Positions 8,355 through 63,962 of a stretch of 64,000 bases of DNA are shown here, one piece after another. Below the pieces are notes generated by a model. It did no database searches. It was not told the DNA's origin and saw only the letters and a list, made by a program, of their open reading frames with translations. Position 1 is the first letter of the stretch; each line of letters opens with the position of its first letter. The DNA is taken from contig CM049314.1 in NCBI GenBank assembly GCA_026874595.1, positions 2,317,318 to 2,381,317 of the forward strand. Reading direction: 5' to 3'. The translations under genes were made by a program, and so were the position numbers. Source of the stretch: Sipunculus nudus (taxonomy: Eukaryota; Annelida; Sipuncula; Golfingiida; Sipunculidae).

Positions 8355-8370
8355 CTGTCGTAAAAAAAAA

Positions 8371-8860
8371 GAACTAAAAATTGTCAGTTTCACAAATACA
8401 CCGATATATACAAATACATTGGCACATAAAAGATACACATATAAAAGTATAAACCGCTCCTCTCCGACATGTCTTAATTACTATTAGGGCTTCACGGCCA
8501 AGAGCTGTGTCACAAATGTACCAATATCCCATTATGTGCAATATAATTTGTATATTAGTATTTTAAACTTAGTTCGAGCATTCTTACATCGATCAGCACA
8601 CATGAATGAGCAAAATTATGTAATAAGCATATTGTTATATACATGTATTCTTAAAATGGAATATCAGGTTTGACAGTGTATCAAACTTTCAATAGGTTCA
8701 ATAATCTGATAATAAACAAAAGTTGACGTGTTTCCTCAATACCATCTGATATGTTGCAGTTCTAGTTATTTTCAAACATCGTAAACTCATACATTTGATC
8801 CGATTAATTAATATAAATATGTAATCTAGCTATTATTTAGTTAAACTGGGGACCAATGGG
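8371..8860. other. Intronic AT-rich stretch, nothing recognised
   Basis: Between the acceptor of the 8354-8134 exon and the first tandem-repeat element. No repeat or coding signal was recognised. Confidence 0.5.
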
Positions 8861-27943: not shown

Positions 27944-29433
27944 TTATGTACGCTCTGACTCCCACATGTCCTGTATTTTATTTCTTCCTAAGCCATGCTT
28001 TCGTAACAGAACCCGAGTGCCCGTGGCTAGAATGGTTGCGTCAGCGTTACGATCATACCTGGCTTTTCTCTGTCTTGCATTCTCTGCTGCATTTTCACTG
28101 GCACGTTCCATAGCATCATTTATTCTCTCATAATGATCGGCTACCCAAGCATCGATGTTCCGATTTCGTAACTGAATGTTCATCACGTGGCTTCCTAACA
28201 AATGATCGATTGGAAGTGACGGTTCGCGCCCAAAGAACAATAAATGGGGTGAATAACTTGTCGCAGAATGTGGTGTTGCATTATATGCAAACAGCAGCTC
28301 AGGTAAAAACTCTGGCCATCGATACTTCTTCTCCTCTGGCAAGGTGCGTAATAAATCATGCATCGTGCGGTTAAACCGCTCAACTTTGCCGTTTCCTTGT
28401 GGATGAAATGGCGTAGTGTGTGATCTGTCGATGTCATAAATTTTACACAGTTCGGCGATAATATGACTTTCAAAGTTCCGCCCCTGGTCACTGTGAATCC
28501 GGCGTGGTATTCCATAGCGGAGAAACCATTCTCGGACTAATGTTTTTGGCACTGTGCGTGCGCGCTGATCTTTGGTGGGGACAGCGATGGTAAATTTACT
28601 AAATCAACAGACATTACTAGCACATTTTCGTATCCGCCGAGCCCTTGTTCTAGCAAGGTGTAATCTATTGCCACCACATCAAGTGGTCGGTTTGCTCGAA
28701 GGTGTTGCATCGATGCGGTTACACGCTTACCTCTTTTTGACACAATGCACCTTGTACATTGTGCACAATGTCTTTCCACATCTTTTCTCAATGTTGGCCA
28801 GTATGCACGCATTTGAATTAGGGAAGCAGTACTATCGATACCCTGGTGTCCCATGTCATCGTGCATTGCATTCAGAACTTGCTGTTTTAAGATTTGTGGA
28901 AGGAGTAGTTGCTCATAATCCCGTCCTTGTAGTTTAACCTTTCGATACCAGACCCCTTGGTGTTGCGTGACGCGATTCCAGGAGCGCAGATGTTTCCTGA
29001 CGTCTGTTTGTTCTTTAATCATTTGCCTCCGAGTGGGCAAATAACCCAGTTCTTTGAAATAGATGAGGCGTTTGATGGTGGGATCTTCCTTCTGTGCCCG
29101 TATCAATCCATCTATTGGTAGTGATGGTAAAGTCTTTGGCACATCGGTTTCTACTCTTTGTGATCTAGTCCTGACTTCATTTACACAAGTTTCTATCATA
29201 AAATTCTCTATTTGTTTTGACATGTTGGACGGAATGGGACTGCCACCCGCATTGTTCTCTAGCTGAGTTTGCACATCGATAATTTCCACGGTTACTTGCT
29301 CCATTGGGCAAACTTGATCAGACGTTGTACTTTCAATCGAATGTTTGCGTCTGGAAAGAGCATCTGCACTTGCATTTTCTCTCCCTGGCCTGAACTTTAT
29401 GTCAAATTGAAAAGTGCCAAATCGGCAACCCAT
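27944..29433 (-). pseudogene. Integrase, Ty3/gypsy
   Basis: Two overlapping open frames, 29433-28537 and 28552-27944, together cover integrase. The N-terminal zinc finger is seen in HDDMGHQGIDSTAS followed by CAQCTRC. The core aspartates lie in DVVAIDYTLLEQG and IHSDQGRNF, and the glutamate in HPQGNGKVERFNRTM. A single-base frame break lies at about 28590-28610, between the first and second core aspartates. The upstream part carries the linker after RNase H (FRPGRENASADALSRR). The C-terminal part is rich in basic residues. Confidence 0.9.
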
Positions 29434-29867
29434 CTCGTTTCTGTCGCACCTAAACGAGCTGTTGATTTCAAATAGGACAAGGGATTATTGTCTGTAAAAA
29501 CAGTAAAGAAAGAACCAATCAATAGATCTCTGAATTTCTCTGTGATCGCCCATTTGAGTGCAAGCAGTTCGAGTTTAGTGTTGGAGTAATTATCCATGTT
29601 ATTTTCATGTTTGTGAAGGGATCTGCTGGCATAGGCAATGACTACTTTCTGTCCATTCTGTTCTTGAGATAATTCGGCACCAAGACCTTCGTGACTAGCG
29701 TCCGTTTCCAGAAGATATGCTTTAGTAAATTCTGGATATCCAAGAACCGGGGCTGTGGTCAAACATGTCTTGACTGTATTAAACGCCTCCTCACATTCTG
29801 TGTTCCACGTTTGGTAAAACCACATTTGTTTCAACCCTTTTTCTTTTCTTGCATTTCCGTTGACCAC
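29397..29867 (-). pseudogene. RNase H domain of pol
   Basis: One open frame with the RNase H features of Ty3/gypsy: ECEEAFNTVKTCLTTAPVLG, LLETDASHEGLGAELSQ (catalytic Asp), YASRSLHKHENNMDNYSNT, ELLALKWAI and FTVFTDNNPLSYL. Upstream, 29868-30119 links it to RT in other frames, so at least one frameshift separates the two domains. Confidence 0.9.
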
Positions 29868-30119
29868 CCAACAACAAATTCAAAGATTTTACAATCTGTG
29901 CAAAATTCTTAATGAAACATCGGTAGTAACTTGCAAGCCCCAAAAAGCTGCGAAGTTCAGTGATGGTTTTAGGTGTTGGCCATTCACTTACTGCTTTGAT
30001 CTTTCCGGAGTCTGGGGAAACACCTTCTGCACCAACAACATGCCCCAGATAAGAGACGGACTTGTGTCCTACATGACACTTACTAGGTTTTACCTTTAAG
30101 CCGAGGTCACTGAGGCGGG

Positions 30120-30608
30120 TCAGACTTTGTCTAGTCGATTGGACATCTCTTCAAATGTCCTACCGAAGACAAGAATATCGTCCAAATAAACAAGAACCTG
30201 ATTAAAGTTCATATCACCAAGTCCCTTATCCATTAGCCGCATAAATGTGCCTGGGGCGTTGCATAATCCGAAAGGCATCCTCAGGAATTCATACAACCCA
30301 CCAGTGCCTACACGAAATGCAGTTTTTGGAATATCCTCTTGAGCCATTGGAATTTGATGATACCCATGTGCAAGGTCCAGTGATGAGAAGTAAGTAGCTC
30401 CATGTAATGCATTTAGAGCCTCTTCGATACGTGGCAGAGGATAAGCGTCTTTGATAGTTTTTGCATTCAGTTGCCTATAGTCCACACATATTCTCAATTT
30501 ACCATCTTTCTTTCTGACCAAATCCACAAGTGCAGCGTATGGGGAACAACTGGGTCTTATAATCCCTTGGTTCATTGCTTTTTCCAGTATTCGCGAACCT
30601 CCGCCCAC
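30120..30608 (-). pseudogene. Reverse transcriptase domain of pol
   Basis: One open frame with RT motifs in order: RICVDYRQLNAKT, YPLPRIEEALNAL, FSSLDLAHGYHQI, FRMPFGLCNAP-type (here FLRMPFGLCNAPGTF), and the catalytic YLDDILVF box. A one-base frame break near 30583 separates it from the upstream protease frame. The palm and catalytic aspartates are intact. Confidence 0.92.
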
Positions 30609-31762
30609 TGTGTCGGTGATATCATACGACGAGGAACCTTGATAGGTGACTCATCACTCAGTCGAATTTTGTGTTCGATGTCACTACAGAGTCCAACATC
30701 CTCATCATGTTTACTGAAAATATCAACGTGACGCTCAATGATTTGGGCTAACGATTCTTGTTGTGTCTGATTTAAGTCCTCATCGATGTCCATCTGAGAC
30801 AAGAGCTTCTCTAAATCAGTCCCTTCCATTTGGGACGGAGAAACCTGAGCTTCCTCTCGGCTAACGCGAGTAACTCTCACCGCTGAGGGCATATCGGCGG
30901 GTTCAACACTCGCTAACCGAATGCCAGGGTGAAGGTTAACATCACTCTCTGAGAAGTTGGTAACTTGAACCGGAATAGAGCCAGCCTTTCCAACATCCAC
31001 CACACACCTTCCTACCATCACACCACTTGGCAATGGGACCATTTCTGAACTTATTGACTCAACTATAGCTGTAAAAGTTATTGCTTGCCCACTAGCAGTC
31101 TGACCAATTATAACTTTTGTAGATCTTGCCGGAATCAATTCTGGTGCCTTTCCTGCGAGTCGAACATACGAAAATGATGGCGGTGAGGGGATGTCCACTT
31201 TAACTTCATACATTGACAATATATCAGCAAGTCCCAACTCCTCTGGTCTTACTTCATCTCGCCATATCTTTTTGATGTCTTGACCCAGCTGTTCTTTCAT
31301 CGCACGTAGAATGTTAGCACCAATTAAACCTGGTACGTCTTTACGACGTTCCCCTTGTTCTCCACATGGGTCATCCACGATGAGGAAGCCTAATTTACTG
31401 AAGGTACATTCCCCGACAGTTACGTCCAATTCAACATATCCGTGAAATGGAATTGGCAAGCCTTGTGTACTTGTCAATTTTATGTAGGAGGAAAATTCTT
31501 TCAACACTTCGTCATTCCAGTGTCTCTTAAAGAAGCTCATCGCAATTGTACTGACCGCAGCGCCAGTATCAATAAGGCATTTCGTCTCTACTTCTCCAAG
31601 TAAAACTGTCATGATGGGACATTCGCCAACTATTCTACTCATATCGGGTCGCTGGTTACATGTGGCGGTCCTGACCTGACCCTTGGCACAGGACCATCTT
31701 AGTTTGACGGTTCGGTTGTTTGTTGTGGGCAATCGCGTTGATAATGTCCCTTGCCTTGACAT
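30572..31762 (-). pseudogene. Protease and N-terminal pol
   Basis: A 396-codon frame whose protease active site is LIDTGAAVSTI near its start (about residues 64-74). A long linker follows, and it ends in the RT entry KVPRRMISP before the frame break. It overlaps the end of gag. Confidence 0.9.
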
Positions 31763-32604
31763 TTAAAACAGGTCACCTCGGATATTGGTCTCCTTTTTCT
31801 TGGCGCGACTGGTCTGTTGAATTGCCCATAAAACCTAGGGGGTAGCGCAGATGGCAGAGTTTGACCTTCTCGCATGGCCCTCACCTCAAGCGTCAATTCT
31901 TGTAACAGGGAGCTTTGGGCCTTGAGTACTTCATGAAGTGATGGCTCTGGGGACTGCTGTTCTACTGCTACTTTTTGTATAGCAACTGCACCAGTCTGCC
32001 CTTCTGGCCCAAGCCACTCTAAAGCAGCCGTCCTCATTTCGAAAAATGACATATCAGGACACTCCCTGTTAAGACGCCTCATCTCTCTCTTTAAGTCAGC
32101 TTGTTGGACAGGTTCAGCAAGCCGCTCTTTCAAAACCCCTTCATTCTGTTCACATTTGGAGGATCCTGATTCATTTTGATTGATCATGCGGTGCAAGCGA
32201 TGAAGCTCCAAAGAGCAACTTATCACCGATTGTCCAGGTTTCTGCACGTTACTATGAAATTGGCTTCGCAACTGGGCTTTGGTTTTATTCTATCCAAAAA
32301 CTGCTGTAATCACACTCAGAATTTTCTCCGTTTTCTCGTAACATGTTGGACCTCGGGCCAGCAGCTCCTCTCGTGCGTGCCCTTTTATATGTTCAAGAAG
32401 AAAACCGGCCTTTTCTCTCTCTGAGTGGAATGCTCTTGTGGCCAATCTCCCTCTAGCCTCACTGCACCAATCTTGCACATCCTCTTTTCCCGTAAAGGGT
32501 TGGAGTGGGGATGTCTGGTTCAAATACACAACTGGAACATTCTGATTTTTAAAGGACACTTCTTCATCCCCATCACTCACTGTTTCTTCTTTTTCCAAAG
32601 GCAT
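31699..32604 (-). pseudogene. Gag with CCHC zinc knuckle
   Basis: Two frames (ATG at 32604 to 32290, then 32271-31699) cover gag, with a stop/frame break near 32280. The first part is charged and contains a retrotransposon-gag-like block (GKEDVQDWCSEARGRL, EHIKGHAREELL). The second ends in a single zinc knuckle CFKCQGKGHYQRDC (C-x2-C-x4-H-x4-C) for RNA packaging. The true ATG is 25 codons inside the longer open frame. Confidence 0.85.
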
Positions 32605-32661
32605 CTTGCACCGAGGGGTCAGCCTTTTCCTTTTTTTTTCAAAGAGATTAATAAAAGCAGA

Positions 32662-32679
32662 TCCTGCCGACTGCGCCAA
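32662..32679 (-). promoter_or_regulatory. Primer binding site, tRNA-Ser-like
   Basis: Two bases inside the 5' LTR the minus strand reads TGGCGCAGTCGGCAGGAT. The complement ends CGACTGCGCCA, matching the acceptor end of an animal serine tRNA as I remember it. The tRNA identity is from memory. Confidence 0.7.
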
Positions 32680-32681
32680 AT

Positions 32682-32931
32682 GAAAGAGATAACAACTCGG
32701 TTCTTTTGAATCTACTATTCTTAAATCATCTATTTATTGTAAGAGGAAGGATAAAGGCTGACCACCTCTTTTACAGCATACCGGTGGTGCACATCAGTGC
32801 TCCAGTATGTAACAAAACCTTGGCTGCTATCAAACCCCTGGACCATATATGATAGCTGATACAATATGAAGTATAAACAAACCTACAGAGTACATCAAGT
32901 TAATGTTGCTGTGTATTTTGACTTTTTTTCA
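32682..32931 (-). mobile_element. 5' LTR
   Basis: 250 bp with the same TG...CA ends as the 3' LTR, but missing about 124 internal bases. Confidence 0.9.
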
Positions 32932-44689: not shown

Positions 44690-47110
44690 AGCGAACCTGT
44701 GAGCTGATGCGATGGTGTGGCGTCGTCCGGCGTCCGTCCGGCGTCCGTCGTCTGTACGTTAACCCATACTATCTTGAAAACAGCAAGAGTTAGCATCACC
44801 AAATTTTATGCAAAAAATTAGTCATCTAAAAAACTCCATCGGATTTTGCTTATTTTTTGGCTGACTGCATTTTCTTAGATTTTATAGGGAAAAGCTTAAA
44901 AACCTTTAAAAATCTTCTTAACTGAAACTGTCCAGCCAAATTGTCCAATATTTCACAGAAATGATTCCTGGAACAATCTCTCTCAAGTTTGTTCAAATGG
45001 TTCCAGTTCGGAGATTTTTGGCCCAGTTACAGGAGGTTGAACTTAGTCATCTGTCCAAAAAAGCACACTAAAATTAAAATCTCAGAAACGGCTAGAGATA
45101 TAATGATCAAATTTTATACCAATGTTTGTCACATATGTCATATCTGATTTTGAGGTATTGGTGGCGCCACCTACATTGATGTGTTTTTTACAAGCAAAAA
45201 TGTAATTTTAAACTCTTCTAGCTTATACACTGATTTATGATGAAACTGTTCAGCTGATTGGTTTAAACTTTACAAGAATTATTCTATGGTAGGGTTCTGC
45301 CAGTTTTATAAGAATAGATTCGGTAAATACAGTTTTAAAAAAGCATTTTAGCCAATTGAAAAAGGCTTTCTGTATTTGAGTACAGATTTGACTTCATGCA
45401 GCCAAGTCAAGAGGTCACTCAGTACAAACAGGTGGGGTCCAGACATCACCATGGCAACTGACCTGGCTGGGGGGGGGGTGTCTAGGCGTCTAGACACAGC
45501 GTCTAGACGTCTGGACACAATGTTTAGATGCAGAATTCCCAGATTATTGGAACTATATCTTTCAACTGTTTGAAAAAACTTGGTTTGCATTTTAAGCGAA
45601 TCTGGTTTATCATCAGGTCACATGTGATTTGCAGCGCCTTCATTTTTGGTTGACCTCTTACATTTCCTTGCTGCCCAGTGTCCATTTGTGCGTCTGTTTC
45701 CACACATAAACCCACATATCTCGGGAACCGTTTGACCAATCAGGCTAAATATTTTGCACAAATGTAGCCCTTTGATAGCTTTATAACTAACACTAAAAAT
45801 GGTGGCACCACCTTCAACCAATTTTGCACAGCGTCCATCTGTTCATCTGCTTTGGGATAATATTACTCATATCTCAGCAGTGGTTTAACTTATCCACCTG
45901 AAATTTTGCAGGTGTATACATCCTGGACAGCTTTCTTGATTTTATGACAGGTGGCGCCACCTACATTCACATTTACTCTGTAGACATCCAAGCTCATATC
46001 TTGGGAACCTTTTGACCGATTGGGCCAAAATTTTGCATGTGTATAGATCTTACATAGTTCTTTATCATAGGCAAAACTGGTGGTGCCACCTGCAACCACT
46101 TATGCACAGCGTCCATCTATTCAATGCCTTAGGTTAAAATCACTCATATCTCAGCAGTGGTTTGCCTTTTCCACTTGAAATTTTGCAGGTATTTACATCC
46201 TTGACAGCTTTCTCGATTTTATGACAGGTGGCGCCACCTACATTCATGTTTACTCTGCAGACATCCAAGCTCATATCTCGGGAACCGTTTGACCGATTAG
46301 GCCAAAATGTTTGCTGTGTATAGATCTCACATAGCTCTTCATCATAGGCAAAACTGGTGGCGCCACCTGCAACTTCTTATGCACAGCATCCATCTGTTTA
46401 TCTGCCTTTGGATAATATCACTCATATCTCAGCAGTGGTTTGACTTATCCACCTGAAATTTTGAGGGTTTATACATCCTGGACAGCTTTCTCGATTTATG
46501 ACAGGTGGCGCCACCTACATTCACGTTTACTCTGCAGACATCCAAGCTCATATCTCTCCCCATTGGACTGATTGGGCAAAAGTTTGCATGTGTATAGATC
46601 TCACATAGCTCTTCATAGGCAAAACTGGTGGTGCCACCTGCAACCATTTATGCACAGCATCCATCTGTTCATCTGCCTTAGGGTAAAATCACTCATATCT
46701 CAGCAGTGGTTTGAATTGTCCACCTGAAATTTTGCAGGTATTTTACATCATTGACTGCTTTCTTGATTTTATGACAGGTGTCACCACCTACATTCAAATT
46801 TACTCTGCAGACATCCAAGCTCATATCTTGGGAACCGTTTGATCAATTAGGCCAAAATTTTGCATGTGTATAGATCTCACATAGCACTTCATTATAGGCA
46901 AAACTGGTGGCGCCACCTGCAACCACTTATACACAGCATCCATCTGTTGATCTGCTTTGGGATAAAATCACTCATATCTCGGCAGTGGTTTGACTTATCC
47001 ACCTGAAATTTTGCAGGTTTATACATCCAGGACAATTTTCTTGATTTTATGACAGGTGGCACCACCTACATTCACATTTAAGCTGCCGACATCCATGCTA
47101 ATATGCAACA
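44690..47110 (+). mobile_element. Core-repeat element, about 139-bp half units / 278-bp units
   Basis: A leader with GTCGTCCGGCGTCCGTCC at 44720-44760 is followed by spacer and then a tandem array. The palindrome GGTGGCGCCACC or close variants recurs at about 45803, 45951, 46078, 46227, 46354, 46505, 46627, 46776, 46906 and 47052. Two alternating unit types together make about 278 bp. Phrases such as CTCATATCTCAGCAGTGGTT and ACATCCAAGCTCATATCT mark each type. Open frames here are repeat shadows. The 3' boundary is approximate. Confidence 0.7.
45486..45510. repeat. Paired GTCTAGAC palindromes
   Basis: Two perfect 8-bp palindromes (45488-45495 and 45501-45508) 13 bp apart, inside the spacer before the array. 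Confidence 0.8.
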
Positions 47111-49013: not shown

Positions 49014-52000
49014 ATGGCTGTAGGTAAGTATGGCCCTTGTGACCAGATATTTTAAGAGTTAGTTTCGAAAATGTGTTTAATTTTAATTCCAGGCACCATT
49101 ACATGATAATGAAATTTGGACTTTAGGTGACCCTTTCATATGATGGCCAGTGCAAAATAGTTTTTCAAACTGTTTTAAATGCAAGTTCAGTGTTCACACA
49201 TCAACCCTAATTGAAAATGTTTTGAATCTGTTTTGGCCAACAAGTTTTTAATCCAGATTAAAATGTGGTTTCAAACAATTATCAATGTGAATCTCCTAAC
49301 CAAACCTGGTTATTTACTTACAAACATTTTCACATAAAATCTATCCATGCATATCTTCACTGGGCAAGAAATTATGAAAAGCCACCAGACGGGAGGGGGG
49401 GGGGGTTGGCAGAATTTCTTTAACAGGCCTCTGAAATATTTGCTGGACTCGTTTTTTATCTGACGTTAAATTCGCTTTAAAAAATACAACAAGGATTTTC
49501 ATTACATTTTGGAATATGTTCATGTTCAATAAAAAAGAGAGGACTCCATGTAAACAAAAATATGGAGAAAATTACCTATAATTCAGGTGTGCTTAGATGT
49601 ATCAGCCTGAAATTTTGCATGTCCATCCATTTTGCATAGTATTGTCATGGACAAGACTGATGCATCTCAGGATACTCTGATGCCAGTAATGCAGGGCTGG
49701 TATGATTTGAATCACTTGATTTAAATTGCAATTTGAATCATGATTTAAATTACTTAAAAATGTCATAACAATCATCAAAACTGATTTTTTTAGTTAATTG
49801 ACCAATTGAGATAGAGAATACTGCATTATGAATTACTAAACTAAAAATAATCACAAATGGCAGATCTTCTGTGACAAATATTCAAATTAGACTGGAATTA
49901 AATTTTGTTGTGTTTTCACTGACTATGACATATACTTCAAAATTCAAGATAATTTTGCGACCAGTTTCCTATACAGGTTATGATAAACTTTCCCGCTGTT
50001 TTAGTTAGAATGTGGCCGGATTTAGTACCCTGTCTGTCGACTTCCAATGTTGCATTATTGTATCGCCAGACATAGTCTGGAGATACTATGGTTTAGGCAC
50101 GGTCGCGCCGCCGCCGCAGAGATTTCTTTTGGACACAATAACTCAAAAAATATTTCACGGATCTTTACCAAACTTGGTATATGTATAGATATGGGTGAGA
50201 GGACAACACCTATTTAAAATGAGGTCATGACCTCAACTAGGAGAGTGACCATGACCTTGAATAGGTTCAATTTTGGGGAAAATCACACAAATTCTTAAAT
50301 ATCTCAAGGAAACTTGCATGGATTGATCCCAAAATCAAGTTGATCGAAGATCATGGATAGGGTTGTCATGTTCCAGAAACTGGTGGCGCCACCTATTATT
50401 CTTTACTTGTTTTCATGCCGTTTAATATCCCCAAAATTGCTACTTGACAGTACTGTGAGCATTATAAGTCAAAAACTAATGGACAGATTTCTTTCATATT
50501 ATGCAAATACATAGATATGGGTTATGGGATGATGTTTATTTAAATTGGGGTCATGACCTTTCCTATGAGAGTGGCCTTGACCTTGAATATTGCCATATAT
50601 GGTGAAAATCACACAAAAACATTAATTTCTCAATAAGGGATGCATGCATTGGTCCAAAATCAACTTGACCGAAGATCTTGGATAGTAATATCATGTACCG
50701 GAAACAGGTGGCGCCACCTGTTATTCTTTTACTTGTTTTCGTGCCGTTTAATACCCCATCATAGCCACTTAACAGTACATTTATAACCTGTGAGCATTAT
50801 AAGTCAAAAACTAATGGACAGATTTCTTTCATATTATGCATATACATAGACATGGGTTATGGGATGATGTATATATAAATTGGGGTCATGACCTTTCCTA
50901 TTAGAGTGGCCTTGACCTTGAATATTGCCATATATGGTGAAAATTACACAAAATCATTAATATCTCAATAAGGGATGCATGCATTGGTCCAAAAATCATC
51001 ATGTTCGAAGATCTTGGAAAGTATTGTCATGTACCGGAAACAGGTGGCGCCACCTGTTATTCTTTTACTTGTTTTGTGCCGTTTAATACCCCATCATTGC
51101 CATTTATCAGTACTGTGAGCATTATAAGTCAAAAACTAATGGACAAATTTCTTTCATATTATGCATATACATGGATATGGGTTATAGGATAATGTTTATT
51201 TGAATAGGGGTCATGACCTTTCCAATGAGTGGCCTTGACCTTAAATATTGCCATATATGGTGAAAATCACACAAAATCATTAATTTCTCAATAAGGGATG
51301 CATGCATTGGTCCAAAAATCAACTTGACCCAAGATCTTGGATAGTAATGTCATGTACCGGAACCAGGTGGCGCCACCTGTTATTCTTTTACTTGTTTTAG
51401 TGCCGTTTAATACCCCATCATTGCCACTTAACAGTACATTTATAACCTGTGAGCATTATAAGTCAAAAACTAATGGACAGATTTCTTTCATATTATGCAT
51501 ATACATAGACATGGGTTATGGGATAATGTATATATAAATTGGGGTCATGACCTTTCCTATTAGAGTGGCCTTGACCTTGAATATTGCCATATATGGTGAA
51601 AATTACACAAAATCATTAATATCTCAATAAGGGATGCATGCATTGGTCCAAAAATCAACATGTTCGAACATCTTGGAAAGTATTGTCATGTACCGGAAAC
51701 AGGTGGCGCCACCTGTTTTTCTTTTACTTGTTTTGTGCCATTTAATACCCCATCTTTGCCATTTATCAGTACTGTGAACATTATAAGTCAAAAACTAATG
51801 GACAGATTTCTTTCATATTATGCATATACATAGACATGGGTTATGGGATAATGTATATATAAATTGGGGTCATGACCTTTCCTATTAGAGTGGCCTTGAC
51901 CTTGAATATTGCCATATATGGTGAAAATTACACAAAATCATTAATATCTCAATAAGGGATGCATGCATTGGTCCAAAAATCATCATGTTCGAAGATCTTG

Positions 52001-55000
52001 GAAAGTATTGTCATGTACCGGAAACAGGTGGCGCCACCTGTTATTCTTTTACTTGTTTTGTGCCGTTTAATACCCCATCATTGCCATTTATCAGTACTGT
52101 GAGCATTATAAGTCAAAAACTAATGGACAAATTTCTTTCATATTATGCATATACATGGATATGGGTTATAGGATAATGTTTATTTGAATAGGGGTCATGA
52201 CCTTTCCAATGAGTGGCCTTGACCTTAAATATTGCCATATATGGTGAAAATCACACAAAATCATTAATTTCTCAATAAGGGATGCATGCATTGGTCCAAA
52301 AATCAACTTGACCCAAGATCTTGGATAGTAATGTCATGTACCGGAACCAGGTGGCGCCACCTGTTATTCTTTTACTTGTTTTAGTGCCGTTTAATACCCC
52401 ATCATTGCCACTTAACAGTACATTTATAACCTGTGAGCATTATAAGTCAAAAACTAATGGACAGATTTCTTTCATATTATGCATATACATAGACATGGGT
52501 TATGGGATAATGTATATATAAATTGGGGTCATGACCTTTCCTATTAGAGTGGCCTTGACCTTGAATATTGCCATATATGGTGAAAATTACACAAAATCAT
52601 TAATATCTCAATAAGGGATGCATGCATTGGTCCAAAAATCAACATGTTCGAACATCTTGGAAAGTATTGTCATGTACCGGAAACAGGTGGCGCCACCTGT
52701 TTTTCTTTTACTTGTTTTGTGCCATTTAATACCCCATCTTTGCCATTTATCAGTACTGTGAACATTATAAGTCAAAAACTAATGGACAGATTTCTTTCAT
52801 ATTATGCATATACATAGACATGGGTTATGGGATAATGTATATATAAATTGGGGTCATGACCTTTCCTATTAGAGTGGCCTTGACCTTGAATATTGCCATA
52901 TATGGTGAAAATTACACAAAATCATTAATATCTCAATAAGGGATGCATGCATTGGTCCAAAAATCAACATGTTCGAACATCTTGGAAAGTATTGTCATGT
53001 ACCGGAAAAAGGTGGCGCCACCTGTTATTCTTTTACTTGTTTTGTGCCGTTTAATACCCCATCTTTGCCATTTATCAGTACTGTGAGCATTATAAGTCAA
53101 AAACTAATGGACAAATTTCTTTCATATTATGCATATACATGGATATGGGTTATAGGATAATGTTTATTTGAATAGGGGTCATGACCATTCCAATGAGTGG
53201 CCTTGACCTTAAATATTGCCATATATGGTGAAAATCACACAAAATCATTAATTTCTCAATAAGGGATGCATTGATTGGTCCAAAAATCAACTTGAACGAA
53301 GATCTTGGATAGTGTTGTCATGTACGGGAAACAGGTGGTGCCACCTGTTATTCTTTTACTTGTTTTTGTGCCGTTTAATACCCCATCATTGCCACTTAAC
53401 AGTACTGTGAGCATTATAAGTCAAAAACTAATGGACAGATTTCTTGCATATACATAGACATGGGTTAGGGGATGATGTATATTGAAATTTGGATCATGAC
53501 CTTTTCTATGAGAATGACCTTTTCTATGAGTGTGGTCTGATATTAATTGTTGCTGAAGATGGGGGGCCTATTCTTAAAGGGGGGGGGATTAATTGTCTGG
53601 GGATACTATGGCACCTGCGGTGCCAAGAAATATCTAGTTTTTAAATACACTCATAAAATGTAATGAAGATATGCAGAATTATTTACTTAGATTGATAAAT
53701 ACCCTGCTGTGGTGAACGAACCACCAATGTTGCATGGGATTATATGCCACACATATTCTATTCTAATAGACTAAAACTAAGTAGAGAAGACTAATAGATC
53801 ATTCAAACACTGTAGTTTACATAATATAATGATTTCAATTTAATTTTTTTTTGTAATGGGCCATTCAGTGTAAATATGCAGGCATATTGTAGGGTTATAA
53901 ATACATGATCAGTCTGAAATGTTGGAATCAGGTTTGCCAGTGATTACAGTTTCATAACAAAAAAACTTCCTATTAATTCCCTTTTATACTACATATTACT
54001 TTTACTTTTACAGTCATAATAACATGCATTATTAAACCTTTTAATTTAGCTGATAAGAATAGAAGAAATGATTAATTTATCATAAGTTGATTTAAATCAT
54101 TTAAAGTGGATTTAAATAAAAAAAAATAAAAAATCAGGTATTTTTTTATAAAAGTCAAATTTTTACCAGCCCTGCAGCAATGTCTAGGGTTCTTAAGACA
54201 TTTATGCCTCACACAATCCATTGCCCACAGATTTGGCCATACACAACATATTCTAGTTATTATTATCATAAAGTACTTTAAGTCTTTCCAAATGCTACTT
54301 TGTGCAGTAAGTTGTTCGATTCATGTTTCAGTCAGACAATGTGTATGAGAATATTTTGGCACCAACATCAAATCAGTGATTACCAAACCTGATTTTTTTT
54401 AGCTCAGCTGACTATAAGTCATCTGAGCTATAGTCGTGGTCCATTGTCCGTCGTCTGTCCGTCCGTCCGTAGATGTGGCACGTTTTGAAACCGTAAGACC
54501 TAGGAATCCAAAATTCAGCATAATGTTAGATGTCCCCAAGATCTCCTACCAAGCCGAAAACTGGGTCTTTGCGACTTTGTTCCTTTGAGAAATTAAGGAA
54601 AAACCTCAATTTTTTATTAAAATCCTATTTTCACACTTCAGGACTGCCTAATATCAAAACCACTCATCTGTTTTTCCTCATATTTACCATAAATATTCCT
54701 CTATATAGTTTCTATGTACATGCCAGAAATTAAGTCTGTAAAGTATAAATTCTTCAAGTTATGGGCCCAAACATAATGGACTTTGTAAAAAATCAGAAAA
54801 AATAATAACTCACTTAACATGAACAATTTTGAAACAAGAGTCTATTTTCTCAAGTATATAACTATGTTTAATTAAGATTCAATTGTTTACCCCAAATTAG
54901 ATCTGAATTTTGTAAATTTTTTAAGTTATTAGCATAAAAAAAATCAGTACCTTAAATTTTGCCCAACTTTGACCATGGCACGTTTTTTTCCTGTAAGCAC

Positions 55001-58000
55001 CATTGATTTAATTTTCACAGCATGTAAACATAAATATTTAGTTTGTCTAAATCTGAAATTTGAAAATAAAAGCTTGAAAATTAAGCTAGTTATTGATTTT
55101 TTTTCTGTAGTCACTTGCTTTGATTACAGATGCAGGGTCCCACTCCAGGTCACTGGAAGTCAGTTATGCCAGGGTTTCTGATTTGTTACAGTCACTGGGG
55201 GAGATCCCCTGCTGTGACAGGTGTACAGTTATTCTCATATCACCACCCTAATATTTTTGTGGTAAAAAATAAATAAACATTTGTATGCATGATGTGGTGT
55301 TATCTGACAAGATTGAGATTTATGATGATGCAATTGAGAATTATGAATCAACTTTTATATTCAGATATATATGTTAAATTGGAAATGTATAGAAATATAA
55401 ACTTAAATTAAAAAATAATTGATGTGATAAAAAAATCAGGATTTAATACAAACATTTGTTTATTATTTTCCTGCCTCAGCAGAATTTGAGATCAGGCTTT
55501 GTTTGCCCTGTTTTATGTTGTTAATTAGCTATATTTCAACTGTACACATTTCATAAAAAAATACATATATATTTAATAATATATATTATACAAAAAAATA
55601 GATTCAATTGAACAAATGTGTAAACTACTGAAATGTCAACAGTTAATCGAAAAACCAACTAATGATCATGGTAATAGTACAGATCATTTGTTCACAAACT
55701 GCTCACATGCTTTAGTTTCAACATTAGGAAACACATGGTCAGGTCACAAAATATTTTTTGCAACAATTTCTTGCTCATCAATACAAACCAATCATACAAA
55801 CCAACCATGGCCTTTATTACCTCTTCCTCTTACACTTTATCTCCATTTGATATTATTTTAGATTTTTACCTTCAAGGTTTACGTCAGCTGAGCACAGTGA
55901 CCCATAGGTCCCTTGTTTTGTTTATTCAGAGCCATCTTGCCACTGACCCCTGTCATGTCTGTCGATATACATTGTATCATGAAATTTAAGATTAAAAATA
56001 ATTTAAGATGGTAAAGTAATCATTATTTTCAAATGATATGCAAGCTATAAGTATATTTTTAGGGCCCAGCTTGACAAGCAGTGCCCTATAATGATCATTG
56101 TGTCAGTCCGTCCTTCCTTCCATCGGTCCTTCCGTCAGTGACACTTTCTTTCCGATGCCATAACTCAACAACAACATACTGCAGCTTTCCCAACTTCACC
56201 AGGATGATTGGTACCTATGAGGGCTCCAGACCTATTGAATTAAAGACTGGTCGGAATTCAAATATGGCCGCCACAGCCCATACACTGATTTTCTTTTGCA
56301 TGCAATAACTCAACAACAACAAACACACTGCAGCTTTCCCAAATTCACCGAGATGATTGGTACCTATGACAGCTCCAGACCTATCGAATAACAGACTTGT
56401 CGGAATTCCAATATGGCCGCCACAGCCCCAATCACACGCGTTAACTCAACAACAACATACTGCAGCTTTCCATAATTAACAGGGATGGTTGGTACCTATG
56501 AGGGTTCCAGACCTGTTGAATAACAGACCTGTCGGAATTCCAATATGGCTGCCACAGCCCAATTGCTCTTTTTCTATCGCGCCTGATAACTCAACAACAA
56601 CCTACTGCAGCTTTCCTAAATTTACATTGATGATTGGTACCTATAAGGCCCCAGACCTATTGAATTACAGACATGTTGGAATTCCAATATGGCCACCACA
56701 GCCCGATTGCTGATTTTCTTTCACGAGCAATATTTCAGAAACCTACTGCAGCTTTCCCAATTTCACAGGGATGATTGGTACCTGTGAGGGATCCAGACCT
56801 ATTGAATTACAGACCTGTCTGTATTCCAATATGACAGCCACAGCCCAATCGCTGATTTTCTATTGGGCGCTATAACTCAACAACAACCTCCTGCAGCTTT
56901 CCCAAATTCACAGGGATGATTGGTACCTATAAGGGCCCCAGACCTATTGAATTACAGACATGTTGGAATTCCAATATGGCTGCCTTCTCCCATTCGCTGA
57001 CTTTCTTTCACGAGTGAAAACTCAACAACAACCTACTGCAGCTTTCTAAAATTCACAGGGATGATTGGTACCTATAAGGGCTCCAGCCTATTGAATTACA
57101 GACCTGTCAGAATTCCAATATGGCCGTCACAGCCCGTTTGCTGATTTTCTTTTGCAAGCGATAATTCAAAAACAACCTACTGCAGCTTTCCCAAATTCAC
57201 AGGGATGATTGGTACCTGTGAGGGATCCAGACCTATTGAATAAAGACCTGTCTGAATTCCAATATGGCTGCCACAGCCCAATTTCTGATTTTCTATCACT
57301 CGCAATAACTCAACAACAACCTACTGCAGCTTTCCCAAATTCACAGGGAAGGTTGGTACATTTAAGGGCTCCAGACCTGTTGAATTACAGACCTATTTGA
57401 ATTGCAATATGGCTGCCACAGCCTGATCGCTGATTTTCTTTTGCATGCAATAACTCAACAACAACCTACTGCTGCTTTCCCAATTTCACAGGGATCATTG
57501 GTGCCTATGAGGGCTCCAGACCTATTTAATTACAGACTTGCTCAAAATCAAATATGGCTAACAGACTACATTCGGTGATTTTCTATTGCATACATTATTT
57601 CAGACATATCTTCTGTAATATCTTTTGATCCAGTAGGATTTTTTTCCTAATGCTTATGGATAAAAACCTGTTTTTGTTTGTCATATTTTTCAAATTTTTC
57701 ACCCATATGTAAACTAGTCCAGCACTAGCAGAAATGCGGGGCCCTCTGAGGACCATTGTCCAACCACATCTAGGTATTCGTTTAAATTTTTGCCACTTTT
57801 TTTAGTTTGCCAGAGTACTGGATGTACACATTTACAAGGTAATATTTTGTAATAAAACCTCTTTTTAAAAAAAATATATCTTTTTTCTAAATCCCATAAT
57901 GAAATTGAACATTTGATATGGACAAGTTGAAGCCCTTTAAAACCTATCCATTTATACTATTGAACAAGTGGTTTTTGTCAGATTTATTATTTTTTACAGA

Positions 58001-61000
58001 AAAGAAGAAGTCTGATGAAGAATTTGAGATCCTTGACCTGACAGATAAGAACTTCCTGCAGAAAGTGGTGGCTGACCTGTCAAAAGCTGGAGCAGCAAAG
58101 CAGATAGCAGTGGGTGGTGCTAGTGGCTGGTGAGGACTTACTTATACAGGACAGAATCAGTAACATCAGCTCTCGAGTAACTTCCTCCTCACACAGGCCT
58201 CTGTGGCCTTCTGGGGGGTCCTAGGGGTTATGACCCAGCAATGGGATTGATTACACACCCAAGACCGGTAGGTGTGGTTACTGTGTTACACTGAGTCCTG
58301 TTGATGCCAGGATAATCTCACATGTGTAAGTCCCTGTCACATAGCGAGTCCAAAACCTGAATGAAATTATTCAGATGAATCATGTACATAGTACTCATAT
58401 AAACAGGCAATAAAAATGTAGGAAGTTACCTCCTCAAAAAATCTTAAGGAAAAAAATACTTTGTTCAGCACCTTATGTTACTGTGGTGATAGAGTTTCTA
58501 GCTTGCCCAGTAAACCAGGCTGTTCATATTTTTATTTTTACCTAAAAATTGGTGTAACAATCTGGTATTTTGCCTATGACCACCAACACACAATTCAGAT
58601 GTTCTGTTGCTTTTCCAGAAAATAAGCTCCAGGGTCAGTGGAGATATTGCTAGAATATGTTAAGGAGATGAGAAGATTTTCTACAAAATCCATAACTACA
58701 CTAGTAGCAACCTTTTAAATATGGCCATTGTGCTGATCAGATAAATATTCAATCCTGATCAGTTTTGAAGCTCACATTGGGCTTTGTGATTGAACAAAAT
58801 TCACTTTATTAAAATAACTAATTGTGTATCACAGCTAAATGCACACACATGTTTCACCCAACACACTAGTTGACATGAACAGTGTGCTTTTAAGAGAATA
58901 TACAGACTGCATATATATGTATTTTGACTCCAGAAAACAAGGGTGTTTTTAAAAAGAAACTCTCTGGCAAGCTTGACAGTTATAAATAATATTAATAATT
59001 ATAAGAACTCTTCTCTTCCAGGGAATTAAACCAGCTGGACTTGCACTAGGTGTGAAATCTGATTAGATGAACACGGAAAACATTTGTGTGACTTTTGACA
59101 TTAACTTTGGTTAAACATTATGTAGGAGACTATCTGCATTCATGGTGCAGTCAGCATGTATGTAAAGCATGGGTTAGACATATTGCCCATAATGACCTAT
59201 TTCCCATATTGATAGCTTTCCCTTGTTGACAGATTTCCCATGTTGACAAATTTCCCATGTTGACAGATTTCCCATATTGACAGATTTCCCATATTGACAG
59301 ATTTCCCATATTGTATTGATATTGATGTACAGAAGCCTAAAAGGGAATCTGTTAGCATAACACTATAAATGGTCTCTAAGCATGGATGAATTTTATTTTG
59401 TAATACTGTATCTTCCTATTGTTAACTTAGTGTTCAGTAGTTGCTTAATATAACAGAAACTATATTATGATAATCTGTACACTTCTGATACTTGAATTGT
59501 ATAATGCTCATGGAGGTTTGGTTATTTTCATTTACTCCTATTTTAGTATCATGTCAGTACTTTCACTGTTGCTAAGCTGCTGTCACTATTGGCAACAGAT
59601 TATATGATCACTCTCCATACATAAGTATATTTTTGTCCTCAGGGTAACAGGCTGTCTGGCAGGGAAGATAGGAAAGGCTGTCGCAGGGACAGTAGGGGGC
59701 ACAATATTGTTATTACAGGTTGGGTTCCTTAATGTTTTGTCTGTTATATTTGTATTCTGTTTCTTTCATATGAACATTTGTCTAAGTGGTTTGCTGGATC
59801 TTATACATTAATTATTAACATCTTTTTAATTAAATTTTAATTAAAGTAGCTATATATCTTGATTGCAGATTTCAAACTGAAGGAGTTACACACAAAATGG
59901 GTTAGACACATGAGGATATTATGCTTTGAGATATTGTGAAATTTCATTTTCAACAGATATGCTATGATAATCACTCTTTATTAAATAAATAAACTTAAAA
60001 ACTTGTAAAATCTTAAAAGATCTACTGGTTATAGAAACGCAATCAAATTCCAGAATGCAGAGAACATTTGTAGCTTTCAGAATATGTGTGTAAAGTTTCA
60101 CCAGATTAAGAAGTTTTAACTGTTTTGCACATTAAAGATAAATTAAAGCACAATTTTTGCACAATCCATGGACAACCCATGGACCCTGAGACCAAAGTGG
60201 CTCCAGTCTCTATGTCTCATGTCGATGCTCTGGAGATGGCAAGCCAGTGTTAGACAAGTGTTCATATATATCTGTTGTTCTCTACTCTGTTTCTTCCTGT
60301 TGCAGTTCATAACATTTCATGGGGACCCTGCAGTAACACATTCAAAAGACTATTTCTGGACCAGGATAATTAATTTACTACCCATTAATCCATGTCCTGA
60401 CTCCTTACAATCCATGTAGCTGACAGCATAGTATATACAGTGACTCCTTACAACCCATGTAGCTGCCAGCATAGTATATCCAGTGACCCCTTACAACCCA
60501 TATAGCTGCCAGCTTAGTATATCCAGTGACTCCTTACAACCCATGTAGCTGCAAGCATAGTATATCCAGTGACTCCTAACAACCCATGTAGCTGCCAGCA
60601 TAGTATATCCAGTGACTCCTTACAACCCATGTAGCTGCCAGCATAGTATATCCAGTGACCCCTTTCAATCCTAGTAGCTGCCAGCATAGTATATCTAATG
60701 ACCCCTTACAACCCATGTAGCTGCCAGCATAGTATATCCAGTGACTCCTTACAACCCATGTAGCTGCCAGCATAGTATATCCAGTGACCCCTTACAATCC
60801 ATGTAGCTGCCAGCATTGTATATCCAGTGACTCCTTACAACCCATGTAGCTGCCAGCATAGTATATCCAGTGACTCCTTACAATCCTTGTAGCTGTAAGC
60901 ATAGTATATTCAGTGACCCCTTACAATCCTTTTAGCTGCCAGCATAGTATATCCAGTGACTCTTTACAACCAATGTAGCTGCCAGCATAGTATATCCAGT

Positions 61001-63774
61001 GACTTCTTACAACCCATGTAGCTGCCAGCATAGTATATCCAGTGACTCCTTACAATCCTTTTAGCTGCTAGCATAGTATATCCAGTGACTCCTTACAACC
61101 CATGTAGCTGCCAGCTTAGTATATCCAGTGACTTCTTACAACCCATGTAGCTGCCAGCATAGTATATCCGGTGACTCCTTACAACCCATGTAGCTGCCAG
61201 CATAGTATATCCAGTGACTCTTTACAACCCGTGTAGCTGCCAGCATAGTATATCAAGTGACTCCTTACAACCCATGTAGCTGCCAGCTTAGTATATCCAG
61301 TGACTACTTACAACCTATGTAGCTGCCAGCATAGTATATCCAGTGACTCTTTACAACCCATGTAGCTGCCAGCATAGTATATCCAGTGACTCCTTACAAC
61401 CCATGTAGCTGCCAGCTTAGTATATCCAGTGACTGTTTACAACCCATGTAGCTGCCAGCTTAGTATATCCAGTGACTCTTTACAACCCATGTAGCTGCCA
61501 GCATAGTATATCCAGTGACTCCTTACAACCCATGTAGCTGCCAGCATAGTATATCCAGTGACTGTTTACAACCTGTGTAGCTGCCAGCTTAGTATATCCA
61601 GTGACTCCTTACAACCCATGTAGCTGCCAGCATAGTATATCCAGTGACTCCTTACAACCCGTGTAGCTGCCAGCATAGTATATCCAGTGACCCCTTACAA
61701 CCCATATAGCTGCCAGCTTAGTATATCCAGTGACTCCTTACAACCCATGTAGCTGCCAGCATAGTATATCCATTGACTCTTTACAGCCCGTGTAGCTGCC
61801 AGCTTAGTATATCCAGTGACTCCTTACAACCCATGTAGCTGCCAGCATAGTATATCCAGTGACTCTTTACAGCCCGTGTAGCTGCCAGCTTAGTATATCC
61901 AGTGACTCCTTACAACCCATGTAGCTGCCAGCATAGTATATCCAGTGACTCCTTACAACCCATGTAGCTGCCAGCATAGTATATCCAGTGACTCCTTACA
62001 ACCCATGTAGCTGCCAGCATAGTATATCCAGTGACTCCTTACAACCCATGTAGCTGCCAGCATATTATATCCAGTGACCCCTTACAACCTGTGTAGCTGC
62101 CAGCTTAGTGTATCCAGTGACTCCTTACAACCCATGTAGCTGCCAGCATAGTATATATAGTGACTCTTTACAGCCCGTGTAGCTGCCAGCTTAGTATATC
62201 CAGTGACTCCTTACAACCCATGTAGCTGCCAGCATAGTATATCCAGTGACTCTTTACAACCCATGTAGCTGCCAGCATAGTATATCCAGTGACTCCTTAC
62301 AACCCATGTAGCTGCCAGCATAGTATATCCAGTGACTCCTTACTACCCATGTAGCTGCCAGCATAGTATATCCAGTGACCCCTTACAACCTGTGTAGCTG
62401 CCAGCTCAGTATATCCAGTGACTCCTTACAACCCATGTAGCTGCCAGCATAGTATATATAGTGACTCTTTACAGCCCGTGTAGCTGCCAGCTTAGTATAT
62501 CCAGTGACTCCGTACAACCCATGTAGCTGCCAGCATAGTATATCCAGCCTGAGTTATCCATTTGCCAATCATTATCTCAGCCAACAAGGTTGTCATTTCT
62601 GTTCATAAGAATTTTCCAAAAAGTTCCCAATGAATTTTGGAGAAATTTTATGAAAGAATTGGCCATGAATAAGCTCATTACATTTTTTTGATTATTTATA
62701 TATGAACTGGCAATAAAAAGTAAAAGTTAATTAAAATTTTGGCTTAAATGTTAAATTTTTGTATTAATGTAGATAAATTTTCCAGGAAAAGTCATTGTCA
62801 GTCAAATTTTTGGATGATAAGTTTAGGTGAGCATATTGATATGGTGTTGGGTATTTGTAGAGGTGGCGGCTCGAGTGATTTCTAGTTTTAGCTATATTTG
62901 TTTTAGTGTATTGTTTGCTTGAAATTATGTCATTGAAGCTACATGTTAGAATCACTTGTTAAACACTCTAAATATCTTCAAGCTATAAAAGTGGCTCTGT
63001 CATTCGAAATGAGAAAAAAAAATCAAACAATTACCCAGGATACTGGTGGTCATAAATTTTCCTGCTAATCAAATCCATTTCGGTAGTCAAGCTTTTTATA
63101 TATTTCATTGAATTTAACTTTAAAGGGTCATTAACACTTGAAAGATTAGAGTTTTTTTCCAACTGAGGCAGACTCAGAGACTTGGCCCTCAGAGTTTATT
63201 TCTGCAACATCCTTATTTCTCTAACACAGTCATTTAAATGTATATCTTTTTCAGATCGGTGGTATTTGGTTGCAGTTAGTCACCCTTATTGCTCATAGGT
63301 GGCAGCATTGAGTTTGCCATTAGCTTATTCAGTTTTCATTCCTCAATCTTCATTTCTCTTCAGTGAAAACTTGCATCATCCATTATACCTTATACAATTT
63401 AGCAGGTGGCAGCACTGCCTCTGCATTTTAACAGCATTTGCACTTGCACAGTTAATCATCACAATGGTCATCCTTTCATGTGTATAAATCACTGAGTTCC
63501 TTTTTAGTTTTGCTTACATAATTGATTTTGCTAGATTTCTTTGGCACAAAATTTTATAAACCCTATGATGTTCTTTTTTCATAGTTACTGCAGGGTCTTC
63601 AGTCACCCCTCTTTCAGCCATCACAGAATGCCCCATCCATGACCAGACCTCTGGTGTAATGTTCAGCAGTCATATGCATTGCCTCAGCTTGCTTTCAGGT
63701 GCGCAGGCTACCTTAGCGGGAATGTCGGAAAAAGTGCCGCAGCTGCCCTGGGTGGGAGTCTCCTTATACTTCAG
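49014..63774 (+). CDS. FUN14 domain protein, FUNDC1-like (3' part outside window)
   Basis: FUNDC1 is a mitochondrial outer-membrane protein that recruits LC3/Atg8 to drive mitophagy. Exon 1 (ATG at 49014, MAV, donor G|GTAAGT at 49023) lies in phase with exon 2 (58000-58129; acceptor TTTTTTACAG). Together they read MAVEKKKSDEEFEILDLTD and on to KQIAVGGASG, with W47 split over the junction. F12-E-I-L15 fits the LC3-interacting motif. The FUN14 domain starts at KQIAVGGASGW. The next exon exists in two versions (59643-59718 and 63699-63774), both ending in frame at CAG. Later exons (the rest of the FUN14 domain) are not in the window. The N-terminal cytosolic part is about 15 residues shorter than in human FUNDC1. 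Exon 1 may have a spliced 5' UTR, since TTTTTAG acceptor-like sites lie 30-40 bp upstream. Intron 1 is about 9 kb and full of mobile elements. Confidence 0.88.
49692..54174. mobile_element. hAT-like element in intron 1, with nested insertion
   Basis: Ends CAGGGCTGGTA and, inverted, TACCAGCCCTG, with AT-rich TTTGATT/TTTAAATC-type subterminal sequence. Flanking octamers CAGTAATG (49684-49691) and CAGCAATG (54175-54182) agree in 7 of 8 positions, as expected for an aged 8-bp hAT target duplication. No transposase frame was seen. The 3.5-kb core-repeat element at 50060-53640 is nested inside. Confidence 0.75.
50060..53640 (+). mobile_element. Core-repeat element, 10 units of about 328 bp, nested
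   Basis: The 5' end has the hairpin CCAGACATAGTCTGG followed by GATACTATGG and a CGCCGCCGCCGC-rich leader. The 3' end has GTCTGGGGATACTATGGCAC and the hairpin GGCACCTGCGGTGCC. Units are marked by GGTGGCGCCACCTGTTATTC at about 50382, 50707, 51043, 51366, 51702, 52027, 52350, 52686, 53011 and 53333 (spacings 322-336 bp). Each also carries GGGGTCATGACCTTTCC and GCCATATATGGTGAAAAT. Open frames inside repeat with the units and are not genes. Confidence 0.8.
54402..55925 (+). mobile_element. Non-autonomous element copy 2 (hairpin, GTCCG leader, EN remnant)
   Basis: Nearly identical to 40732-42610, with the same 5' hairpin, GTCCG leader (here with one extra 8-bp TGTCCGTC), the 77-codon endonuclease-like remnant (55616-55861) and the 3' end CTGAGCACAGTGACCC. 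It lacks about 370 bp relative to copy 1, the junction lying at the point where copy 1 has its long C tract. It lies in intron 1 of the FUNDC1-like gene. Confidence 0.75.
56062..57775 (+). mobile_element. Core-repeat element, 10 units of about 144 bp
   Basis: Starts with the imperfect hairpin AGGGCCCAGC...GCAGTGCCCT and a GTCCGTCC-type leader. Then ten units follow, marked by CTACTGCAGCTTTCCCAAAT at about 56179, 56328, 56460, 56605, 56745, 56891, 57036, 57180, 57324 and 57469 (mean 143 bp). Each unit carries GATTGGTACCTATGAGGG and AATTCCAATATGGCTGCCAC. The 3' end GGGGCCCTCTGAGGACCATT echoes the sequence after the 5' hairpin. Open frames here are repeat shadows. It lies in intron 1 of the FUNDC1-like gene. 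Confidence 0.75.
59203..59316. repeat. About 19-bp tandem repeat
   Basis: TTGACAGATTTCCCATATT-type units, about six copies, in the intron before exon 3a. Confidence 0.9.
59643..59718 (+). CDS. FUNDC1-like alternative exon 3a
   Basis: Acceptor TTTTTGTCCTCAG, 76 nt, donor CAG|GTTGGG. The first G completes W47, followed by VTGCLAGKIGKAVAG and then TVGGTILLLQ. It matches the FUN14 segment WCAG..xxVGK..AT.VGGG.LLLQ, including the Gly-Lys and Gly-Gly positions. Hydrophobic and glycine-rich, it forms a membrane helix of the domain. Confidence 0.88.
60408..62552. repeat. 43-bp minisatellite, about 50 copies
   Basis: The unit is CCAGTGACTCCTTACAACCC followed by ATGTAGCTGCCAGCATAGTATAT. Period 43 bp, measured directly between neighbouring units. 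Variants (GCTTAG for GCATAG, CCCGTG for CCCATG, CTCTTT for CTCCTT) recur in ordered groups, indicating duplication of multi-unit blocks. It lies between FUNDC1-like exons 3a and 3b. Confidence 0.97.
62553..63698. other. Intron sequence before exon 3b
   Basis: AT-rich. Exon-like borders near 63254 (TTTTTCAG|ATCGG) give no FUN14-like coding sequence. Nothing else was recognised. Confidence 0.5.
63699..63774 (+). CDS. FUNDC1-like alternative exon 3b
   Basis: Acceptor GCTTGCTTTCAG, again exactly 76 nt and the same phase, donor CAG|GTGCTA. After completing W47 it reads CAGYLSGNVGKSAAA and then ALGGSLLILQ. It is closer than 3a to the vertebrate segment at the start (WCAG). Eleven of 25 residues are identical to 3a. 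Splicing 3a and 3b together would read GTG CGC AGG CTA CCT TAG at the start of 3b, a stop within six codons, so only one can be used per transcript. Confidence 0.85.
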
Positions 63775-63962
63775 GTGCTAAATTTAATTAGTTTTCTGTA
63801 AAAGAAATATTTTTTTAAGCAAATCTTTTTTAGGACACTAAAACTGTCATGTTTTAAAGGCTGTTAGAACAATAGCAGTTGTGAATTTGATTAAATAAAA
63901 TTGTCAGATGGTGTTTGTATAAGTGATTTTACCCTGAATTTTATGTAAAATGTATGACATAA

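Follow-up and report, generated by a model that had tools for sequence, protein, structure and literature searches.

A FUNDC1-type gene with a pair of candidate mutually exclusive exons that differ at the position of human lysine 70

The window analysed here, a stretch of 64,000 nucleotides (C9:2317318-2381317, within a 1.43-Gb assembly of 153 contigs), carries the 5' part of a FUNDC1-type gene in which exon 3 is present in two versions, 3a and 3b, and whose single exons 4 and 5 lie beyond the window end (Table 1). When 124 kb were searched by tblastn with the human FUNDC1 sequence, exon 4 was matched at E 1.4e-6, exon 3b at 6.9e-5, exon 5 at 0.002, exon 3a at 0.008 and exon 2 at 0.014. The coding part of exon 1 is a prediction: the candidate has a strong donor, and its sense and phase are compatible with those of exon 2 (M-A-V-E/KKKSDEEFEIL). 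All splice sites of the gene are of the GT-AG type. Elsewhere in the window, open frames of a transporter and of a retroelement are found on the opposite strand, and several tandem arrays are present.

Table 1. Features of the FUNDC1-type gene and of its surroundings (exons 4 and 5 in extended window numbering; a slash marks the exon end)
Feature	Position	Strand	Description	Basis
Candidate exon 1, coding part	49014..49023	+	ATGGCTGTAG/GTAAGT (ATG GCT GTA G/GTAAGT), phase 1	Prediction
Exon 2	58000..58129	+	130 nt, end GGC TG/GTGAGG	tblastn with human FUNDC1; hmmscan with exon 3; gene model
Exon 3a	59643..59718	+	76 nt, VTGCLAGKIGKAVAGTVGGTILLLQ; Lys at human K70 position retained	
Exon 3b	63699..63774	+	76 nt, CAGYLSGNVGKSAAAALGGSLLILQ; Asn at K70 position	
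Exon 4	65803-65922		Single exon 4, beyond window end	
Exon 5	72380-72457		Single exon 5, TAA at end, beyond window	
Second match to exon 5	63794-63835		14 residues, just 3' of exon 3b	tblastn, E 0.051
Minisatellite	60398..62547	+	43-bp unit, about 50 copies, 91% matching; about half of the 3a-3b intron	
Tandem array	45795-47104		277-bp units	
Tandem array	50211-53521		Units of about 325 bp	
Tandem array	56162-57559		145/289 bp	
Major-facilitator transporter open frames	5901-8383	-	MFS_1 match in 5901-6728	E 3.2e-31
Monocarboxylate-transporter-like frame	7973-8380	-	No Pfam match at E 0.001	By eye
Retroelement open frames	27944-32733	-	Integrase core 27944-28600	
Aspartyl-protease match	30572-31759	-	Among the retroelement frames	Under its own cut-off

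Against the Pfam FUN14 profile (PF04930), the peptides encoded by 3a and 3b each aligned to profile positions 10-34, with 16.8 bits (E 0.0091) and 20.4 bits (E 0.00068) respectively, both lower than the curated cut-off of 22.5 bits when taken alone. Joined to exon 2, both passed this cut-off: exon 2+3a scored 23.5 bits and exon 2+3b 29.7 bits, in a scan that left out exons 4-5 and matched profile positions 1-34 of 92. Exon 2 encodes the start of the FUN14 domain together with the sequence S-D-E-E-F-E-I-L, an LC3-interacting-type motif that fits the definition Y/W/F-x-x-L/I/V given for the N-terminus in PMC5526904. The F-E-I-L core is preceded by acidic residues and has Phe in place of Tyr18 of human FUNDC1. 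According to PMC5526904, most invertebrates, molluscs included, are without a conserved LC3-binding motif, and several that have one are named.

Exons 3a and 3b are separated by an intron of 3,980 nt. Each is flanked by AG and GT. Each begins with the G that completes Trp47 (TG+G) and ends with CAG in phase 0, as a preliminary description of this DNA had reported for two exons of 76 nt about 4 kb apart. Its further statement that they encode homologous FUN14 segments with 11 of 25 residues identical was borne out as well (BLOSUM62 64; both exons match the same profile positions); the DNA identity of the two is 0.55, and they match each other by tblastn at E 4.7e-5 in the 124 kb searched. The rebuilt mRNAs 1-2-3a-4-5 and 1-2-3b-4-5 are open and encode 137 residues each. 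When both copies are placed in one mRNA, a stop is reached at codon six of 3b, and when both are skipped, a TGA is formed at the exon 2/4 junction, in line with the stop and the frame shift announced in the preliminary description. The length of 76 nt is 1 mod 3; since it is not a multiple of three, double inclusion and skipping of both copies stop early, upstream of further junctions.

An origin of the pair as chance open segments was ruled out. The 124 kb contain, over both strands, 744 segments of the form AG-76-GT (396 on the forward and 348 on the reverse strand), 109 of which are open in the required phase. Among the latter, 3a (54) and 3b (75) are the only ones to which the human exon-3 peptide aligns with a BLOSUM62 score over zero. 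No third copy of exon 3 was found in the 124 kb by a six-frame scan with windows of 25 residues, the next best score being 25.

Within the 124 kb, exon 3 is the only duplicated exon. The best second matches were at E 0.051 for exon 5, E 0.60 for exon 4 and E 2.2 for exons 1-2. This bears on the reading, in our view highly improbable, that the pair does not stem from an exon duplication and is instead left over from a gene duplicated in tandem, or is an artefact of assembly or of haplotypes. Gene arrays can yield duplicated homologous exons (PMC3228551), and the 14-residue match to exon 5 just 3' of 3b would suit such an origin, but this match is taken as noise, and apart from it none of exons 2, 4 and 5 has a further match with an E-value under 0.48 in the 124 kb. 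Tandem gene duplication was thus rejected at the sensitivity of this exon search, in which 3a and 3b do detect each other. As for an artefact, two copies that are just 55% identical in DNA do not look like one.

At the scale of the genome, a query of exons 2+3b returned exons 2 and 3b of this gene and one match on contig C13 (E 0.7), the one-frame translation of which contains no recognisable FUN14 sequence; the full 3a isoform returned exons 2, 3a, 4 and 5 of this gene and one match on contig C7 (E 5.6). With these two queries, neither a retrocopy nor a close paralogue was found. The sensitivity of the genome-wide searches is limited: the 3b query missed 3a, the 3a query missed 3b, and when the FUN14 profile was run over the complete genome, 0 matches reached E 0.001 despite the presence of the gene. 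A diverged second gene could therefore escape, and single-copy status is not claimed. In one scan each, relatives of the 3b isoform were found neither in viral contigs (26 pattern matches) nor in prokaryote contigs (165), and its best match in the PDB was to glucose transporters, at E 0.07. When the two exons were compared by blastn together with 500 nt to either side, a single chance match of 11 nt resulted; this comparison carries little weight as to flank homology, the exons themselves being undetected by it.

The two copies differ at 11, 7 and 16 of 25 sites at the three codon positions. By the Nei-Gojobori method pS is 0.68 and pN 0.37, with a Jukes-Cantor-corrected ratio of about 0.28, and pN was lower than pS in 99.3% of 2000 codon bootstraps. 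Judged from this divergence, the split between 3a and 3b is old. It could be argued that 3a is decaying or already dead and that 3b alone is used: 3a is the more divergent of the two (of the 25 residues it shares 13 with human, compared with 15 for 3b, and its BLOSUM score is 54, compared with 75), has the lower Pfam score and has an acceptor weaker than that of 3b (2.0 vs 7.4 in a rough scoring). We regard this as unlikely. Exon 3a keeps an open frame, both splice sites, its phase and the 11 shared residues despite a pS of 0.68; it holds K70, V79 and L85, which are absent from 3b; and its donor has a higher score than the 3b donor. Moreover, neutral decay to the observed distance seldom reproduces such a pair, as judged from simulations in which each exon was drifted from the other in 20,000 runs per setting, distances (d) of 0.6 and 0.7 giving approximately the observed DNA identity. 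At these two distances, an open frame and the splice sites were retained together with 11 or more identical residues in 111 and 25 of 20,000 runs started from 3b, and in 94 and 27 of 20,000 started from 3a. With the observed similarity to human also required, 1, 0, 0 and 0 runs remained (1 of 80,000 over the four settings). An earlier simulation of 4000 runs gave the same picture. At d 0.4, 1088 and 970 of 20,000 runs (about 5%) passed the test of frame, splice sites and identity, and 30 and 0 of 20,000 also that of human similarity; this distance would give a DNA identity of about 0.68, compared with the 0.55 observed.

The distribution of human residues points in the same direction. Ten of the 25 exon-3 sites are common to 3a, 3b and human, three to 3a and human only (the K70, V79 and L85 already mentioned) and five to 3b and human only, one is common to the two copies only and six show no such agreement. 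As each copy has human residues that are absent from the other, it does not look as if either had simply arisen by decay of the other. The comparison uses a single outgroup, human FUNDC1, in an ungapped alignment; tblastn would rather place a gap of four residues in 3a ahead of the lysine, by which the first residues change and the lysine stays at K70. Constraint on both copies is favoured over neutral decay in this sequence comparison, which is pairwise, covers 25 codons and starts from the present-day copies, and which is not a proof for each lineage. The long-term constraint put forward in the preliminary description is retained in this form, and its dismissal of a recent dead copy is softened, as the recent death of one exon leaves no trace in such a test.

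Several features listed in PMC3228551 for mutually exclusive exons are found in the pair: about equal length (76/76 nt), compatible splice sites, a frame that is kept, sequence similarity, a neighbouring internal position, shared flanking exons and no gene array in the 124 kb. Such exons also need exactly one copy per transcript and junction reads for each (PMC3228551, PMC5740500), and in a human survey that started from 6,541 mutually exclusive candidates, RNA validated no more than 1,399 when one read was required and 855 when three were (PMC5740500). The pair, which the preliminary description had called mutually exclusive, is thus better termed candidate mutually exclusive exons, probably real. 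Our preferred reading, to which we assign a probability of about 0.72, is that of one FUNDC1-type gene composed of exons 1-2-3a-4-5 or 1-2-3b-4-5, in which an old duplication of exon 3 left two copies that are spliced mutually exclusively. The case does not rest on single-copy status or on flank homology.

How exclusivity might be achieved was considered from the introns and splice sites. Steric crowding is unlikely, the 3,980 nt between 3a and 3b being too long, and a U2/U12 mismatch was rejected, as every site is GT-AG and none is U12-like by eye. Intron pairing, searched as exact complementarity outside the minisatellite stretch, found no support: the complementary stretches reached at most 11, 13 and 12 nt, lengths attained in 126, 21 and 96 of 200 two-base-block shuffles. 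Because these three mechanisms received no support, we propose that exclusivity would come from donor competition and trans-acting regulation which, with the reading frame, form the remaining route to it. In a matrix scoring, the donors of 3a (2.3) and 3b (0.2) are the two lowest of five, that of 3a lying just under exon 4, compared with 6.2, 6.6 and 2.7 for the other three, exon 1 included. In an uncontrolled count of six splicing motifs, which reached 300 nt from exons 2, 3a, 3b and 4, TCTT occurs six times downstream of 3a and four times upstream of 3b.

The weak exon-3 donors, and the early stops that a length of 76 nt imposes on double inclusion or skipping, would also suit a gene in which 3a and 3b are real and not strictly exclusive, one being used by default and the other acting as a poison or stress exon, with double inclusion or skipping serving to lower protein levels via nonsense-mediated decay. 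A poison exon has no need of conserved FUN14 coding, which both 3a and 3b retain, and we hold this variant to be quite improbable. Under mutually exclusive splicing, each mRNA would receive one copy of exon 3, chosen through competition and regulated splicing, and the products of double inclusion and of skipping would be eliminated as premature-stop mRNAs. The two resulting proteins would have in common the LC3-binding-type N-terminus and the C-terminus, and would differ in the end of the first transmembrane segment, the loop and the start of the second.

Exon 3 corresponds to residues 63-87 of human FUNDC1. Human FUNDC1 has three transmembrane segments, and its residues 69-73 constitute the contact with OPA1 in the intermembrane space (PMC5526904). 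From this topology, exon 3 would run from the last part of TM1 through the OPA1-contact loop into the first part of TM2, so that the FUN14 part of the "FUN14 helix segment" of the preliminary description stands and the single helix probably does not. At human positions 69-73, 3a reads GKIGK and 3b GNVGK; the loop lysine of 3a is K55 here (human K70), and 3b has at this position an Asn, that is, neither Lys nor Arg. This swap of the OPA1-contact lysine is what the present analysis would add to the preliminary description.

The K70 contact loop is known from mammalian work. K70 is important in human FUNDC1, K70R still binds OPA1, and almost every FUN14 protein of animals has this lysine conserved (PMC5526904). 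Reviews state that with K70 mutated OPA1 is no longer bound and that fragmentation, fission and mitophagy follow (PMC8914053, PMC10252584); the FUNDC1-OPA1 link shifts with stress and phosphorylation in mammals (PMC10252584). PMC8914053 describes K70A as a change to arginine, which conflicts with the K70R binding result of PMC5526904, and PMC9358025 locates K70 in the transmembrane region instead of the loop. The mechanism that we hold most likely, although doubtful in itself, is a switch: exon choice in this gene would yield either a mitophagy receptor restrained by OPA1 or one independent of it, and the animal would thereby retune the removal of its mitochondria by splicing. The 3a form, with K55, would be kept inactive by inner-membrane OPA1 and so sense inner-membrane stress, whereas OPA1 could not restrain the 3b form, which would favour fission and mitophagy; exon choice, which might depend on the tissue or on low oxygen, for instance, would then set the threshold for mitochondria removal. 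The Lys/Asn difference, one base change, may also be drift, because at 8 of the 25 sites one exon has the human residue and the other does not.

FUNDC1 joins the state of the inner membrane (OPA1), fission (DRP1) and mitophagy (LC3). If the proposal is true, the two isoforms, one of which has the contact lysine while the other lacks it, would form a natural separation-of-function pair, and a further mitochondrial process, beside that of coq-2, would be retuned by an exon swap. SLC25A3, the mitochondrial phosphate carrier, is a mitochondrial membrane protein with exchangeable exons. In human SLC25A3 these exons are mutually exclusive (PMC5740500), as proposed for the FUNDC1-type gene; unlike the latter, it does not encode an outer-membrane mitophagy receptor. 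In coq-2 of C. elegans, and similarly in helminths, annelids and molluscs, exons 6a and 6e are mutually exclusive and of identical length (134 nt), and, like 3a and 3b, they are internal, homologous and part of a mitochondria-related protein; their choice is tied to low oxygen (PMC7434440). In contrast to the present gene, coq-2 encodes an enzyme of quinone synthesis, and its case is backed in C. elegans by RNA and exon removal (PMC7434440), whereas ours is drawn from DNA.

Mutually exclusive exons are therefore a known kind of arrangement, of which a FUNDC1-type case appears new within the literature searched. In agreement with the preliminary description, which knew of no such case for FUNDC1, no report of mutually exclusive exons in FUNDC1 or FUN14 genes was found there, in a search of titles and abstract starts that covered few subscription papers; FUNDC1 isoforms may exist in the annotations of other animals. 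The human survey (PMC5740500) mentions neither FUNDC nor FUN14 in its main text, and that of PMC5526904 contains neither "exon" nor "isoform" as a word. PMC12432130 concerns the splicing of ULK1, and in an oyster study (PMC9163569) FUNDC1 appears as one of the mitophagy genes, with no word on isoforms in the passages about it. The gene shares with human FUNDC1 and FUNDC2 the FUN14 domain, the LC3-binding-type motif, the OPA1-contact loop and a similar C-terminus (PMC5526904). Vertebrate FUNDC proteins diversified by whole-genome duplication (PMC5526904), whereas here one gene has two versions of exon 3.

The 43-bp minisatellite between 3a and 3b is probably incidental, and two of the tandem arrays, those with units of about 325 bp and of 145/289 bp, sit in the 9-kb intron downstream of candidate exon 1.
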